NCBI GenBank assembly: GCA_018396725.1
Contig: JAGTRC010000003.1
Span: 1-48,452, forward strand
Direction of reading: 5' to 3'
Source of the DNA: Candidatus Bathyarchaeota archaeon
Lineage (GTDB): Archaea > Thermoproteota > Bathyarchaeia > 40CM-2-53-6 > DTGE01
DNA length: 48,452 nucleotides
In this document: positions 12,640 to 33,069 of the stretch, piece after piece
Layout of the letters: each line of letters opens with the position of its first letter
Position numbering within the stretch: the first letter of the stretch is position 1
The notes under the pieces: model-generated
Database searches by the model: none
The model's input: only the letters and a program-made list of their open reading frames with translations
Told to the model about the DNA's origin: nothing
Position numbers and translations under genes: made by a program

Positions 12640-13827
12640 ATGGAAAGAAATAGGGCGATTGAATTGGTCTATGAAGAAAAAGAAGATGAGAGGAGCATCC
12701 TTGCGAGGACGAAGCCCGCCTTCCTCCATGAAGCTAAAAGATTCGGTATAAGCCTTGACGGCTCATATAATATGTTAATATTCGGAGATAACCTCCCCGT
12801 CTTAAGGGCACTAATGGATGAGCCTAGTATCAAAGGAAAGGTAAGATTAATTTACATAGATCCCCCATTCTCTACGAACCATGAGTTTAGAGCAGGCGCC
12901 TCAAGGACGGCAACCGTAAGCGCGAGCAGGAACGATAAAATCGCTTATGAGGATACCCTAGTCGGAGCAGAATACCTCGAGTTTTTGAGGAGAAGACTAA
13001 TCCTCTTGAGGGAACTGCTGGCCGATGACGGGTCAATCTATGTGCACATCGACTGGAAGATGGGACATTACGTTAAGGTTTTGATGGATGAAATCTTCGG
13101 TCAAGAACACTTCATCAACGATATAGCAAGGATAAAATGTAATCCAAAGAATTTTGAAAGAAAGGGATATGGCAATATTAAAGATATGATACTGTTCTAC
13201 TCCAAGACCGAGGACTATGTATGGAATGGGTCCTTTCAAGAGTACACACAAGAACAGATAGAGAAGCTTTTTCCCAAAATGGGTGAGGACGGGAGACGGT
13301 ACACCACTAACCCGCTACACGCCCCGGGAGAAACCAAGGATGGCCCTACCGGTCAGCCGTGGCGAGGCATGCTTCCACCGAAAGGTAGGCATTGGAGATA
13401 TCCACCGGAAGTTCTAGAGGAATTGGATAGAAAGGGATTGATAGAGTGGTCCAGCACGGGAAATCCACGAAAGAAGATATATGCAGATGAATATTTAAAG
13501 AAAAAAACTAAGAGGCAGGATATTTGGGAGTTCAAAGACCCCGCCTATCCATTATATCCAACTGAAAAGAACCTGGATATGTTAAAGACCATAGTTGAGG
13601 CGTCGTCCAACCCCGGTGATATAGTATTGGACTGCTTTGCTGGCTCAGGAACGACCCTGGTGGCTGCTGAGCTACTCGGTAGGAGATGGATTGGGGTGGA
13701 CAATTCCCCTGTCGCCATCGAAGTTTCAATAAAGAGGTTACAAAAACTGGAGAAGGTACGGCCATTCATCCTTTACAGAGTGGATAGAGCTCCATCACCC
13801 AAGGCTCCCCAAAAAATCCTTCAATAA
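12640..13827 (+). CDS. DNA methyltransferase (beta-class, N6A/N4C)
   Basis: A 395-residue amino-methyltransferase. The catalytic motif LIYIDPPFST is near residue 74 and the S-adenosylmethionine motif DCFAGSGTTLVAAELLG near residue 330, followed by WIGVDNS. Catalytic motif before cofactor motif is the beta-class order, as in type III Mod and many type II enzymes. A target-recognition region lies between (residues about 170-300). The enzyme would methylate adenine N6 or cytosine N4 at a specific site to protect host DNA. Its 3' end overlaps by 33 bp a convergent gene with a nuclease core, so the two form a restriction-modification unit. The recognition site cannot be read from the sequence. Confidence 0.85.
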   Translation: MERNRAIELVYEEKEDERSILARTKPAFLHEAKRFGISLDGSYNMLIFGDNLPVLRALMDEPSIKGKVRLIYIDPPFSTNHEFRAGASRTATVSASRNDKIAYEDTLVGAEYLEFLRRRLILLRELLADDGSIYVHIDWKMGHYVKVLMDEIFGQEHFINDIARIKCNPKNFERKGYGNIKDMILFYSKTEDYVWNGSFQEYTQEQIEKLFPKMGEDGRRYTTNPLHAPGETKDGPTGQPWRGMLPPKGRHWRYPPEVLEELDRKGLIEWSSTGNPRKKIYADEYLKKKTKRQDIWEFKDPAYPLYPTEKNLDMLKTIVEASSNPGDIVLDCFAGSGTTLVAAELLGRRWIGVDNSPVAIEVSIKRLQKLEKVRPFILYRVDRAPSPKAPQKILQ

Positions 13828-14592
13828 TAAAGCGCTTAAAACTGGTTCGTCGTCGGCTAAGCCGGAGAGAAGCTTTATATAGCTTCTGTTAAACCATACG
13901 ATTCCATCCACAACCCCAACCGCAACGATTTTCTCCTTCATCTTCCTTACGAATTCTATAACTTCTTTCAGGTCTCGAGTCTGCGATCCCCCACTCGTAC
14001 TTAAGAAACGAGCCTCGCCTACTACGAGTTTGTCGGCGGTTCTGAAAAGAAAATCTCGTCCCCTATCAAGTACGTAACCAAATTTTTCATTTAGATACTT
14101 CAGTATGCTGGCATTCCTGGCATCCAGAAATGCCTTATCTTTATAACTTTCAAATCGATGTTGCGGAAGAACGGGTATTCCTTGACTAGGAAAATAGCGC
14201 CTAAGCCAGTTATGAAATGCTGGCCCCATTACCCTATTTATATCAATGGACCTTTCAATACCTCTAAAAATCTCATCTATAGACATCTTAAGAAGCATGG
14301 AACCCAAAGTTTGAGTAACTTTAGGGTTGTTTTCCATGAGCTTTGGCTTCTGCCTTAAGATTGATGCGTAAGGATGTTCGACTGGAAAAGGATGCCCTCT
14401 CTTACTCTGCTTTAGTATAATCTTGAGTAGTTCTTTCCAGTCCCCCCTTCCATGCAGCTCTCGTATCCTGTTTTTCACATCATCCTCTAATGGCCTTCGC
14501 GGCAAAGGTTTTGCAGGATAAATTTCAGAGAGCCTATCTAGATAATTTTGGGATTCTGCGACTCTGAGGCTCTTTTCAACCCACTCATTCAA
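13795..14592 (-). CDS. Probable type II restriction endonuclease
   Basis: A 265-residue protein convergent with the methyltransferase, their ends overlapping by 33 bp. The C-terminal half has a PD-(D/E)XK-like core: Asp180 in RGRDFLFR, then Glu193 in VVGEARFLSTSGGSQTRDL, so the catalytic pair is D...ExR rather than ExK. The following GGSQ loop is typical of several type II restriction enzymes. The N-terminal half is helical and unassigned. Adjacency to a site-specific methyltransferase supports restriction endonuclease function. The Arg in place of Lys is unusual and could mean reduced or different catalysis. AT-richer codon use agrees with acquisition by transfer. Confidence 0.65.
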   Translation of the reverse strand: MNEWVEKSLRVAESQNYLDRLSEIYPAKPLPRRPLEDDVKNRIRELHGRGDWKELLKIILKQSKRGHPFPVEHPYASILRQKPKLMENNPKVTQTLGSMLLKMSIDEIFRGIERSIDINRVMGPAFHNWLRRYFPSQGIPVLPQHRFESYKDKAFLDARNASILKYLNEKFGYVLDRGRDFLFRTADKLVVGEARFLSTSGGSQTRDLKEVIEFVRKMKEKIVAVGVVDGIVWFNRSYIKLLSGLADDEPVLSALLLKDFLGSLG

Positions 14593-14806
14593 AAGGCTCC
14601 ACCTTTAGACGATTACAACTGTTAGGAACATAAGATTTTCCGTTGATACCTAAATATCAAAAGATCCCTAATCAAAACTCTATAGGCTCGAAGCTATAGG
14701 AACTTAATCTCCTATGGTTACTTTATAGATTTAATGGTTTACCGGGGCTCACAAACGGTTAGAGGTAGCTTCTCCGATAGTATAATTTTTTAAAGCTGGA
14801 AGTCTA

Positions 14807-17050
14807 TTGGAGCTGGTAGGGGTCGGCCAAGCCTTGAAGCGCCTGGAGGGTTTAAGCTCTAAGATATTGGATGCGGCCTCCTCCCCCGTCCGCCTAGCGA
14901 TATTGAAGCTCTTATCCAGTAGGGGGCCGCTCCCCTACACGGAGATAATGTTCGCGGTGAACCTTGATCCCGTGAGGGACGCCGGCAAATTCGTCTATCA
15001 TCTGAGGAGCCTCGTGGACGCCGGCCTGATAAGGCTCGACAGGAAGAGTAAGAAGTACCTCTCCACGGAGCTGGGCGAGATGGTCGTGAAGTTTTCGAGG
15101 GACCTGGAGGAGTACCTGGCCGTGAAGAAGGGTAAGATGTACGTCAGGACCTCACGGCTCGCAATAGAGGAGTTCGATAGATCCAGGATCGTGGACAGCC
15201 TGGTGAGGGAGGCGGGCATCCCCGTGGAATTGGCCCAGGAGATAGCGGCTGAGGCCGAGGAACGCCTCATAAAGCTCAAGGCCAGATACCTCACAGCCCC
15301 CCTCATAAGGGAGTTCGTAAACGCCCTCCTCCTGGAGAGGGGCCTGGAGGAGTACCGCCACAAGCTCACCCGCCTGGGCATGCCCATATACGATGTAACC
15401 CAGACCGTGGAGGAGGCGGCGAGAAAGGGTTTACCCGTGTCCACCGTGGAACGCGCGGCCGGCTCCTCGGTCCTGAAGGAGTACGTGCTCCTCAAGGGGG
15501 TTTCGAGGAGCGTAGCCGACGCCCACCTATCCGGCCTCATACACCTCGACTCCACTGAGAACTGGCTCCTAAAACCCGACTATGCATCCCATGATCCCAG
15601 GATGATCCTGAACCCGCCCAGGGGAGGCGAACCCCCCCAGGACCTCGGCGACGCTTTAAACCTGATAATTAGGGTTCACAGGCGAACCGTGGGGGAGGTC
15701 TCCCAGGGGGAGATCCTCCCCTTCCTCAACGTATTCCTCGCCCCATACCTGATGGATATGGACCACGCCCAGGCGGGAAGGCTCATCCAAAGGTTCCTCT
15801 GCGAGTTGAACGAGGAGGCCTCCATCAACCCTTATACGCCCAGGCTCTCCATAGGGGTCTCCCCCCGGATCCCGGGGGAGCTGGAGGATGAGGAGGCCGC
15901 TTCCCCTAAGGGTGGATCCTCCAGCTACGGGGATTTCAGGGATGAGGCGGCGGCAGCCGCATCCCTCATAATAGAAGCCGCAGACAGGCTTTCGAGGAGG
16001 ACGCCGCTCCTAAACCCCCTCCTCACAGTGAAGCTGGAGGACATGGATGGGATGGGTACCCTGTACGTCCTGGAGGCCGAGCATGGATCCATATACCTCG
16101 ACTTCACACCGGGCTGCGAAGCCTCCTACTCCGGCGACGGCATCCGCCTCTCCCCGGGGTGGCGGGGGGACTGGCGTGTAGACGTGGTTAGGACCGGCCA
16201 CGCGGGGACCGTATTCCTCAACCTAGCCCGGATGGCCTACGAATCAAAGGAGAACTATGAACGCTTCAAGAGGCTCCTGGACGACACGGTCCAATTGGCT
16301 GTGGAGGCCCTGAAGGCCAAAGAGGACTCCTTGAAGAACCGGTTGGACATGGGCCTCCTCCCAGGGCTTAACGGTCTAGGCTTCTCCCCCGAGGGGATGC
16401 AGCACGGCATCGGGGTCCTAGGGTTAAGCGAGGCATCCATGATCCACACAGGCTCCCCGATAGGGTTAGGCGATGAAGCCGTGGAGTTCGCTGTTGAAAC
16501 CCTGAAGCACCTGGGTGAAGCCTCCTCGGCGCTCTCCAAGGAGACGGGCCTACGGATAAATGTGGTCCAGAAGCCGTGCGAGGACGGCTCCCCGAGGCTG
16601 GCCAGGCTGGACGTGGAATCCTACGGTAAAGGCGCCGTGAAGTTCCAGGGCCTCCCAGGCAGCCCATACTACGCCGACATCCCATTGATCCCCCCCAGCC
16701 TGGACATCCCATTGGAGGTCCGGGGAAGGCTTGAAGGAACCCTCCAGGAACACCTCAGGGGCGGGCACCTCGCCCTCTTCCACGTATCGGAGGCCGACCC
16801 CGAAGCCCTCAGGGTATTCTCCCTCAAGCTCAGGGAGATGGGGGTCCTCTTCGCCACCTTCGCCATGGAGCTCTCCCAATGCAACAGCTGCCATAGACCC
16901 TCAAAGGGCCTAATCCAGATATGCCCTTCATGCGGCTCATCCTCCATATCCCATTACGGGGCAGCGTCAGCCCTCCTCCAACCGTTAAAGCTCTGGCCCC
17001 CATCTAAGGCCAAAACCTTCAACGAATGGATCCGATACACGATAAAATAG
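14807..17050 (+). CDS. NrdD-like protein with wHTH and ATP-cone, no glycyl-radical Gly
   Basis: A 747-residue protein starting at TTG. Residues about 10-95 form an ArsR-like winged helix (SPVRLAILKLLSSRGPLPYT, FVYHLRSLVDAGLIRLDRKS). Residues about 108-200 are an ATP-cone (RTSRLAIEEFDRSRIVDSL). The rest resembles class III anaerobic ribonucleotide reductase: NPPRGGEPPQDL, the active-site Cys437 in TPGCEASYSG, and TGHAGTVFLNLARMAYESK. Near the C-terminus a zinc site is kept (Cys692, 695, 706, 709). In NrdD the radical glycine lies 13 residues after the last zinc Cys in a RVTGYLRP-type motif. Here that position is Ala722 (SALLQP). It therefore probably cannot form the glycyl radical. A nucleotide-sensing regulator is one possibility; no activase gene is nearby. 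Confidence 0.75.
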   Translation: MELVGVGQALKRLEGLSSKILDAASSPVRLAILKLLSSRGPLPYTEIMFAVNLDPVRDAGKFVYHLRSLVDAGLIRLDRKSKKYLSTELGEMVVKFSRDLEEYLAVKKGKMYVRTSRLAIEEFDRSRIVDSLVREAGIPVELAQEIAAEAEERLIKLKARYLTAPLIREFVNALLLERGLEEYRHKLTRLGMPIYDVTQTVEEAARKGLPVSTVERAAGSSVLKEYVLLKGVSRSVADAHLSGLIHLDSTENWLLKPDYASHDPRMILNPPRGGEPPQDLGDALNLIIRVHRRTVGEVSQGEILPFLNVFLAPYLMDMDHAQAGRLIQRFLCELNEEASINPYTPRLSIGVSPRIPGELEDEEAASPKGGSSSYGDFRDEAAAAASLIIEAADRLSRRTPLLNPLLTVKLEDMDGMGTLYVLEAEHGSIYLDFTPGCEASYSGDGIRLSPGWRGDWRVDVVRTGHAGTVFLNLARMAYESKENYERFKRLLDDTVQLAVEALKAKEDSLKNRLDMGLLPGLNGLGFSPEGMQHGIGVLGLSEASMIHTGSPIGLGDEAVEFAVETLKHLGEASSALSKETGLRINVVQKPCEDGSPRLARLDVESYGKGAVKFQGLPGSPYYADIPLIPPSLDIPLEVRGRLEGTLQEHLRGGHLALFHVSEADPEALRVFSLKLREMGVLFATFAMELSQCNSCHRPSKGLIQICPSCGSSSISHYGAASALLQPLKLWPPSKAKTFNEWIRYTIK

Positions 17051-17168: not shown

Positions 17169-18172
<1,004 letters not shown>

Positions 18173-18181
18173 GTGGCCTCC

Positions 18182-18661
18182 ATGGTCGATGGAGAAGAAA
18201 AGAGGGATGAACTCTACGTTAAGAAGATAAGGAATGGAACCGTCATAGACCATGTATCCGCGGGCCTAGCCCTGGACGTCCTCAAAATACTCAATATAAC
18301 CGGGAGGGACGGTCGGGTAGTGAGCATAGCCATGAACGTTCCAAGCCGGAAATACGGCAAGAAGGATATAATCAAGGTTGAAGACAGGGAGCTTAGACCC
18401 GAGGAGGTGGATAAGATCGCCCTCATAGCCCCGAAATCCACCATAAACATAATCAGGGACTACAAGGTCCACGAGAAGAAGAGGGTTAAACTCCCAGAGG
18501 TCATAAGGGGCATAATAAGATGCGGCAACCCCTCATGCATCACGAACTCCAGGGAGCCCGTGGAGCCCACATTCAAGATAGAGGCCACGGAGCCCCTGAG
18601 CCTGAGGTGCACATACTGCGGCAGGACGATGGAACAGGAGAGCATACTCAGCCAATTCTAA
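18182..18661 (+). CDS. pyrI: Aspartate carbamoyltransferase regulatory chain
   Basis: About 159 residues from ATG 18182 (a GTG nine bases upstream is also possible). It binds nucleotide effectors and bridges PyrB trimers. Seen: N-terminal allosteric domain (YVKKIRNGTVIDHVSAGLAL, VSIAMNVPSRKYGKKDIIKV, KIALIAPKSTINIIRDYKV) and C-terminal zinc domain with RCGNPSCITNSREPVEP and LRCTYCGRTM, giving the four zinc cysteines. The length is typical. It is transcribed away from pyrB rather than following it. Confidence 0.95.
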   Translation: MVDGEEKRDELYVKKIRNGTVIDHVSAGLALDVLKILNITGRDGRVVSIAMNVPSRKYGKKDIIKVEDRELRPEEVDKIALIAPKSTINIIRDYKVHEKKRVKLPEVIRGIIRCGNPSCITNSREPVEPTFKIEATEPLSLRCTYCGRTMEQESILSQF

Positions 18662-25494: not shown

Positions 25495-25938
25495 TTAAGC
25501 CTCCGCCGGCTCCCCATTCCATGTAGGAGGTCTCCCCAGGAACTCATCCAGCGGCATTGAGTTCCCGCATTTGCCAAGCAGGTCTCTATCTCCGGTTATC
25601 AGTTTCAGTTTTCGAGTCTCAGCCACATAGATGTAGGAGGCATCGTAGAAAGTTATGTCCCTCTCAACCGCTATCCTCTCCACGTCCCTGAGGCACTTCG
25701 GGTCGATGGAGTGCATAGGCATCTCCTCTATTATCTTAGACCATTGCTCCACGGCGTCCTCCCAGTCCTCTAGCAGCCCCCGCCTATGCTCCTTCCAGAG
25801 GATGTTCCCCAACTCGTACTTGGTTAGGTCGAGGATCATCAACTCCGTTAACAGAGAGGATGCCCTCCCACCAAACTCCTTCAGCAATGGATAAAGCGCG
25901 GAAGTATCTAAAACTGCCTTCAGCGTTCCCTGCGGCAT
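25495..25938 (-). CDS. VapC-type PIN-domain toxin
   Basis: About 147 residues from ATG 25938 (MPQGTLKAVLDTSALYPLLK). PIN-domain ribonuclease with acidic residues in AVLDTSALY, in LDLTKYELGNILWKEH, in ITFYDASYIYVAE and in LITGDRDLLGK, the four positions that hold the Mg ion. These enzymes cleave RNA, often tRNA or rRNA, when the antitoxin is lost. The start overlaps the end of the antitoxin gene by 19 bp, so the pair is translationally coupled. The usual start would be close to the LDTSAL strand, which supports ATG 25938. Confidence 0.85.
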   Translation of the reverse strand: MPQGTLKAVLDTSALYPLLKEFGGRASSLLTELMILDLTKYELGNILWKEHRRGLLEDWEDAVEQWSKIIEEMPMHSIDPKCLRDVERIAVERDITFYDASYIYVAETRKLKLITGDRDLLGKCGNSMPLDEFLGRPPTWNGEPAEA

Positions 25939-26147
25939 TCCTTCACAGCCCTCACCCATTCATCCTCGGAGATCCCCTCCATCACCCGCAGCAAAGCATC
26001 GATCGCCTCTTCAAGCTTCCTCTTTTTAGCTTGCTCCACAGCTTCAGCTAAAGCTTTCTCGACGACGCCTTTCACGTCTACGTTCAGCTTTTCAACCTCT
26101 TTTTTCAGCTCCTTCCTTATCCTAACGGATAAGACTTCCGTGGACAT
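25920..26147 (-). CDS. VapB-type antitoxin (RHH-like)
   Basis: A 75-residue protein from ATG 26147 (MSTEVLSVRIRKELKKEVEK). A short N-terminal strand (VLSVRI) and two helices fit a ribbon-helix-helix DNA-binding domain. The Glu/Lys-rich helical tail (residues about 35-75) would wrap the PIN toxin encoded immediately downstream. It is the first gene of the pair and probably represses its own promoter, near TATACAAGTGAAATTTGTAT (26161-26180), which is an imperfect inverted repeat. Confidence 0.75.
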   Translation of the reverse strand: MSTEVLSVRIRKELKKEVEKLNVDVKGVVEKALAEAVEQAKKRKLEEAIDALLRVMEGISEDEWVRAVKECRRER

Positions 26148-32631: not shown

Positions 32632-33069
32632 TTAGGTCTGAGTTAGTTTGCTTTCAAGATCCGGATACGTTATTGTTTTTATGAATTTGCTCGCTGCCCT
32701 CCTTAATTTTTCGTCTTCGGTTACTAGGGTGGCTTCCGCGTTTCTAGCAGTTATAATATACGAGGCGTCGTAGAAGGTTAGTCCTTCTTTATGGGCTATT
32801 TGGAGTGTGCTGGAAAAATCTAGTTTTGTGAATTCTATCGGTTTAATCACGCCCCTTATGGCTAGGTCCTTTATTGCGGTGGCGGCGTCTATGGCGTCCT
32901 CTATGGATATCGATTTCAATAATGTTGAAAGCTTCCAGAGGCTGTTACAGGCTTCATATACGGCCAGGTCTGTGGTAGCCAGGTCTGCACGTGAGGCTTC
33001 TAATATTAGCTGTCTGCCCCTTCTGGTGACCAATGGCAAAAGTGCTGAAGCATCAAGTAAATACTTCAA
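32632..33069 (-). CDS. VapC-type PIN-domain toxin
   Basis: A 145-residue PIN-domain protein. The start MKYLLDASALLPLVTRRGR carries the first acidic residue. Others follow in LATTDLAVYEACNSLWKL, in LTFYDASYIITARN and in TLVTEDEKLRRAA. All four Mg-binding acidic positions appear present, so it is probably an active RNase toxin. It overlaps the upstream antitoxin gene by 4 bp. The module sits inside a segment bordered by direct repeats and is less GC-rich than the flanking genes, which suggests it was inserted. Confidence 0.85.
   Translation of the reverse strand: MKYLLDASALLPLVTRRGRQLILEASRADLATTDLAVYEACNSLWKLSTLLKSISIEDAIDAATAIKDLAIRGVIKPIEFTKLDFSSTLQIAHKEGLTFYDASYIITARNAEATLVTEDEKLRRAASKFIKTITYPDLESKLTQT

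Follow-up and report, generated by a model that had tools for sequence, protein, structure and literature searches.

A winged-helix protein with a catalytically depleted NrdD body in Bathyarchaeota, a putative nucleotide-sensing regulator of ribonucleotide reductase genes

The window, i.e., the whole 48,452-nt stretch of contig JAGTRC010000003.1 of a Candidatus Bathyarchaeota archaeon that was analyzed, encodes a protein resembling the class III ribonucleotide reductase (RNR) NrdD, which raises the question whether this protein is an enzyme or a regulator and, if the latter, of which genes. A previous sequence-only reading described it as an NrdD-like protein fused to an ArsR-like winged helix but lacking the radical glycine, and proposed an RNR fold reused as a nucleotide-sensing regulator. 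The gene and the parts of its product are:

14807..17050, + strand: winged helix, ATP-cone and NrdD-like putative pseudoenzyme, 747 aa, start at TTG14807
14864..15094, + strand: ArsR-type winged helix, residues 20-96, with HTH_20, HTH_5 and DUF7347 above cut-off and ordered helices in the model
15137..15406, + strand: ATP-cone and linker, residues 111-200, PF03477, the best-conserved part of the family
15407..16876, + strand: NrdD-like body, residues 201-690, PF13597, drifting, matched to 4u3e by Foldseek
16880..16939, + strand: Zn ribbon, Cys692/695/706/709, all four Cys in 106/113 relatives

The fusion was borne out by Pfam domains, by an AlphaFold2 model and by structural matches to NrdD. 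HTH_20 (residues 25-77, 31.4 bits, cut-off 27), HTH_5/ArsR (23.0 bits, cut-off 22) and DUF7347 (28.7 bits, above cut-off) all support the ArsR-like character of the N-terminus in Pfam searches. The ATP-cone at residues 111-183 scored 25.2 bits in the protein scan (cut-off 25.8) and 29.3 bits in the genome scan, and the NRDD profile (PF13597) spans residues 211-735 (1e-44). All NCBIfam NrdD models stayed below cut-off, with TIGR02487 at 148.5 bits and 326 required. The AlphaFold2 model, computed with 63 aligned relatives, has a mean pLDDT of 92 and a pTM of 0.78, and the closest solved structures identified by Foldseek were all class III reductases, among them T. maritima NrdD (4u3e) with an E-value of 1.5e-25 and a TM-score of 0.74 by target length. 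Thus, the modeled body really has an RNR fold, preceded by a domain of the DNA-binding type. The class III features present are this fold and the C-terminal Zn ribbon, whose four cysteines are kept as previously claimed.

The radical and catalytic positions were determined from an alignment in which 113 family members were set against 15 bona fide NrdDs encoded by neighboring genes. In the window protein they are occupied as follows:

15581..15583, + strand: Tyr259 at the position of a conserved NrdD Cys (T4 Cys79), Cys in 15/15 NrdDs and 0/113 relatives
16139..16144, + strand: Gly445-Ile446 at the position of the finger-loop Cys-Cys, Cys-Cys in 15/15 NrdDs
16970..16972, + strand: Ala722 at the glycyl-radical position, Gly in 14/15 NrdDs

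Ala722, situated 13 residues past the last zinc ligand Cys709 in the context A-A-S-A-L-L, falls into the radical-Gly column, just as the earlier reading had placed it. In 14 of the 15 NrdDs this column holds the Gly within R-[VI]-T-G-Y-Y or R-V-V-G-Y-L; the ORF of the 15th stops short of it. Gly718, which had been raised as an alternative radical site, aligns with the Ser of S-R-[VI]-T-G and was rejected. The claim that Cys437 ('FTPGCEASY') is a retained active-site (thiyl) Cys had to be abandoned, too: the Cys-Cys of NrdD aligns nine residues further on with Gly445-Ile446, Cys437 is absent from the relatives shown, and the active-site Cys is lost as well. In NrdD, the finger loop carries the radical Cys, and the Cys of the reductive half-reaction is Cys79 in T4, Cys175 in E. 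coli and Cys125 in T. maritima (PMC4493059). The T. maritima enzyme has an Ile at the finger-loop tip, yet keeps the S-C-C-R motif, the radical Gly and Cys125 (PMC4493059); the window protein has neither this motif nor the radical Gly nor an equivalent of Cys125. As judged by the alignment, every radical or catalytic residue tested is missing from the window protein. Among its relatives, 22/113 have a Cys at either position of the finger-loop pair, and radical Gly and finger-loop Cys are both kept in 7/113. The Cys79 equivalent, the finger-loop Cys and the radical Gly occur together in none of the 113, as opposed to 14/15 NrdDs, the ORF of the 15th being truncated. The radical column varies across the 113 relatives, with Ala in 29, a gap in 20, Gly in 19, Ser in 12 and Thr in 9.

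A search of the genome, which is about 99% complete in 32 contigs, with the NRDD profile gave a single match, the window protein, and no other NrdD. NrdG was not found in this genome either, the best match to the archaeal NrdG query reaching 34 bits, compared to 127-131 bits in three NrdD-bearing control genomes. An NCBIfam NrdG candidate (27 bits, 371-aa frame) looks like another radical-SAM protein and was rejected by the archaeal NrdG search with its positive controls. In addition, a TIGR00244 search of the genome identified no NrdR. Given the completeness and contig number, the absence of NrdG, a further NrdD and NrdR is probable, though not proven. The genome does encode two class II reductases (NrdJ), one on contig C9 (18787-20751) with its own ATP-cone and one on contig C3 (62003-63403) without an ATP-cone; neither gene adjoins the window gene, the latter being located some 45 kb downstream on C3. 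This inventory is in line with the earlier proposal. dNTP synthesis in this genome must rest on NrdJ, and the window protein must be without a route to a glycyl radical. As a separate observation, the two nrdJ genes (L040, 2150-4279, - strand; L041, 2680-4521, + strand) show about 65-75% similarity along much of their length and share an identical 284-base tract in mid-gene as well as further blocks of 91-98%. This pattern suggests either gene conversion between the paralogues or an artefact of the assembly.

At E<=1e-5, relatives of the protein turned up in 244 of 300 genomes of the phylum. As weak matches at this threshold include ordinary NrdDs, only about 80 full-length matches and some 70 matches over winged helix and cone were counted as family. 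A named scan confirmed 447 loci encoding relatives; the best 80 of these belong mostly to Bathyarchaeota/Hecatellales, with one labeled Freyarchaeota and one Njordarchaeum. Viral contigs gave no match. The winged helix was present in 112/113 relatives and in 0/15 NrdDs. Mean identity to the window protein amounts to 68% in the ATP-cone, 54% in the winged helix and 31% in the body, and the trend is reversed among the 15 NrdDs, in which conservation is higher in the body than in the cone (column entropies of 1.2-1.4 and 1.55). Eight cone and linker residues (R114, I128, L132, E135, Y161, R168, R184 and R189) are found in 112/112 aligned members. In a tree built without the winged helix, a single branch with a support of 100/100 splits the winged-helix proteins from the NrdDs; by this tree the family has one origin, given a root on the NrdD side, and several of its rows are long-branched.

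Which genes such a protein may serve is best approached through its neighborhood. Downstream of the gene, the window contains:

17169..18122, - strand: pyrB, syntenic, convergent neighbor, presumably not a component of the system
18173..18661, + strand: pyrI, syntenic neighbor, presumably not a component of the system

The order in Bathyarchaeia is regulator, nrdD (followed by nrdG in two cases), pyrB in reverse orientation and pyrI (L049, L051, L063, L065, L066, L077 and L099), and the window represents the same locus without nrdD. Among the 59 named loci whose downstream flank spans 2.5 kb or more, an RNR gene follows on the same strand within 1.5 kb in 10, and in 12 if up to about 2.6 kb is allowed. 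The neighbor is nrdJ at L061, L075, L084 and L136 (Bathyarchaeia and relatives). In one further family, the regulator gene lies directly upstream of nrdJ on the same strand in 21/21 genomes, with a gap of 98-435 nt. All six tested genomes of this nrdJ-linked family encode archaeal AmoA, indicating that these organisms are ammonia oxidizers (the profile was PF12942, as PF02461 does not detect archaeal AmoA). In ammonia oxidizers, a glycyl radical enzyme, being oxygen-sensitive, would not be expected. The neighbor changes from one unrelated RNR class to another, whereas the regulator is retained, which we regard as the strongest argument for a function in RNR expression or activity in general.

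We conclude that the window protein is probably an RNR pseudoenzyme acting as a putative nucleotide-sensing transcription factor for RNR genes, in agreement with the regulator originally proposed. The domain make-up, the loss of catalytic residues, the lack of NrdG and of another NrdD, the conserved winged helix and cone, and the linkage to RNR genes all support this assignment. Counted against it are the failure to find a shared operator, the non-adjacent nrdJ genes in this genome, an RNR neighbor in 10/59 loci with pyrB in most, the co-presence of NrdR in one Bathyarchaeia family, and residual Gly or Cys in some relatives.

Linkage to RNR genes, together with a fold and an ATP-cone type shared with the neighboring NrdDs, would also be expected of a regulator at the protein level, i.e., a dead NrdD body that hetero-oligomerizes with the active reductase, NrdJ or NrdD, and tunes its activity, with the winged helix as a protein-protein module or of secondary importance. 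However, the reductase here and in the ammonia oxidizers is the class II NrdJ and thus belongs to another RNR class, which makes NrdD-type hetero-oligomers less natural, and the winged helix, second only to the cone in conservation, has its matches among DNA-binding families. Such a role is therefore unlikely.

pyrB and pyrI follow the gene as the sequence-only reading had stated, and a regulator of pyrimidine biosynthesis rather than of RNR would fit the 37/59 loci at which pyrB is found on the opposite strand no more than 5 kb downstream. However, pyrB is convergent with the gene, nrdD (and nrdG) are located between the gene and pyrB in several Bathyarchaeia, and the neighbor in ammonia oxidizers is nrdJ. 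As pyrB is convergent and related genomes have nrdD in between, the proximity of pyrB/pyrI is best read as old synteny rather than as a sign of the target, and control of pyrB/pyrI appears quite improbable.

A working radical enzyme with an alanyl (aminoacyl) radical at Ala722 would be compatible with the common Ala, Ser and Thr of the radical column (29, 12 and 9 of 113), and other homologues of glycyl radical enzymes have been shown to carry aminoacyl radicals (PMC11528403); like them, the window protein has a glycyl-radical-enzyme fold with Ala replacing the radical Gly. However, the reported Ala/Ser/Thr enzymes lie outside NrdD, which served as the outgroup (PMC11528403), the column is gapped in 20/113 relatives, the finger-loop Cys and the Cys79 equivalent are lost, and NrdG is absent from this genome and from one sampled ammonia oxidizer. 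With both the catalytic cysteines and the activase missing, this is very unlikely. Finally, the lost catalytic residues and the drifting body could be taken to mean that the gene is a decaying pseudogene or a functionless chance fusion, a reading that is barely tenable and already contradicted by the conservation pattern, i.e., intact frames of 700-780 aa in many families of the phylum, invariant cone and winged-helix residues and four Zn Cys in 106/113 members, and by the confident model.

As an RNR-directed transcription factor, the protein would descend from a class III RNR paralogue that lost its radical chemistry. The winged helix would bind DNA upstream of RNR genes, perhaps also of its own gene, and the ATP-cone would sense the balance of dATP and ATP, while the dead NrdD body may serve as a dimerization scaffold and possibly as a second nucleotide-binding site. 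Bound nucleotide would alter the oligomeric state and thereby DNA affinity, resulting in feedback on dNTP synthesis as for bacterial NrdR; the targets in this genome would presumably be the two nrdJ genes. By analogy, the putative regulator would act as a repressor: in the case of NrdR (PMC9110341; PMC12176259), the ATP-loaded protein does not bind DNA, and dATP/ATP-loaded tetramers bind and repress. As the cone of NrdR is of a different type and the one here resembles those of the partner NrdDs, details of the mechanism may differ. We tentatively advance the wider possibility that, throughout the Thermoproteota including aerobic ammonia oxidizers, the dead winged-helix class III reductase is a general dNTP sensor that controls whichever RNR is present, reading nucleotides through the ATP-cone and the old substrate and specificity sites.

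Of the known systems, NrdD (PF13597; T. maritima 4u3e, T4 1hk8, P. copri 8p2s) shares with the window protein the barrel fold, the ATP-cone and the Zn ribbon; the window protein differs in lacking the radical Gly, the finger-loop Cys and the Cys79 equivalent, in its N-terminal winged helix and in the missing NrdG in the genome. NrdR (TIGR00244) likewise joins an ATP-cone to a DNA-binding domain (PMC9110341; PMC12176259). Linkage to RNR genes is shared with NrdR at the level of the family (nrdJ in 21/21 genomes, nrdD/nrdG in Bathyarchaeia), whereas adjacency is absent in this genome, and nucleotide-dependent control of RNR transcription, a property of NrdR, is proposed for the window protein. 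In contrast to the Zn-ribbon DNA-binding domain and the about 150 aa of NrdR, the window protein has an ArsR-type winged helix and about 750 aa with an RNR body, and its cone resembles those of archaeal NrdDs (V-R-T-S/RTS motif). One Bathyarchaeia family (f5, L169-L172) encodes both a full-length NrdR (154-160 bits) and an HTH-fused pseudo-NrdD, i.e., two candidate RNR regulators in one cell, so that the two proteins are not strictly alternatives. The winged helix is shared with ArsR/SmtB-type regulators (HTH_20, HTH_5, DUF7347, above Pfam cut-offs), but domain composition sets these apart, the effector part here probably being an ATP-cone and an RNR fold instead of a metal site in the winged helix; the metalloregulator model scored 24.4 bits at a cut-off of 55 bits. 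The aminoacyl radical enzymes discussed above (PMC11528403) differ in that the window protein also lacks the catalytic cysteines and the activase.

No published description of an HTH-fused, catalytically dead NrdD was found in the open-access literature, and neither targeted term searches of two large RNR phylogeny papers (PMC9531940; PMC9669993) nor papers on NrdR yielded an HTH-fused NrdD. ATP-cone regulators of RNR are themselves known; what appears to be new is a putative one in which the DNA-binding domain is of another kind and the body is an RNR pseudoenzyme. It is a clear example of the conversion of an enzyme fold into the sensor part of a putative transcription factor. We know of no mechanism for the transcriptional control of dNTP supply in archaea lacking NrdR, and the family provides a candidate dNTP regulator that is widespread in Thermoproteota and located beside nrdJ in ammonia oxidizers, some of which are cultured. 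It also sets a trap for annotation: since family proteins exceed the NRDD Pfam cut-off, aerobic archaea may be listed as possessing an anaerobic class III RNR.

The promoter region of the window gene contains two elements:

14680..14717, strand not assigned: CTATAGG direct repeat pair (14680-14700) followed by an inverted CCTATGG (14711-14717), candidate own operator
14786..14794, + strand: TATA-like box TTTTTTAAA, identified by eye, similar in several related promoters

As TTTTTTAAA lies only 12 nt upstream of TTG14807, translation may start either there or at TTG14834. The CTATAGG pair has an exact match once in the genome, at this site, and was not seen upstream of relatives; the CTATAGG/CCTATGG element is a speculative candidate operator of the window gene. 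Palindrome and shared-word searches of three promoters revealed no convincing operator common to the window gene and the two nrdJ genes. Footprinting of the regulator and nrdJ promoters of the 21 ammonia oxidizers gave conserved promoter-like stretches and no clear common operator. An Rfam search returned tRNAs only, and nothing in L043. In ammonia oxidizers (L043, L149-L168), a short conserved element occurs about 100 nt upstream of nrdJ, between regulator and nrdJ. It reads as a 7-codon mini-ORF in many genomes, e.g., ATGAAGTTCATAGTAGCGGTGTAA, and could be a leader element or an RNA.

Elsewhere in the window, a convergent type II restriction-modification pair precedes the gene (12640-13827, + strand, and 13795-14592, - strand), in which an N6/N4 DNA methylase (PF01555) faces a Tsp45I-type restriction enzyme (PF06300). 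Further downstream, two small lookalikes of PIN-domain (VapC-like) toxins were noted by eye at 25495-25959 and 32632-33069, both on the - strand.
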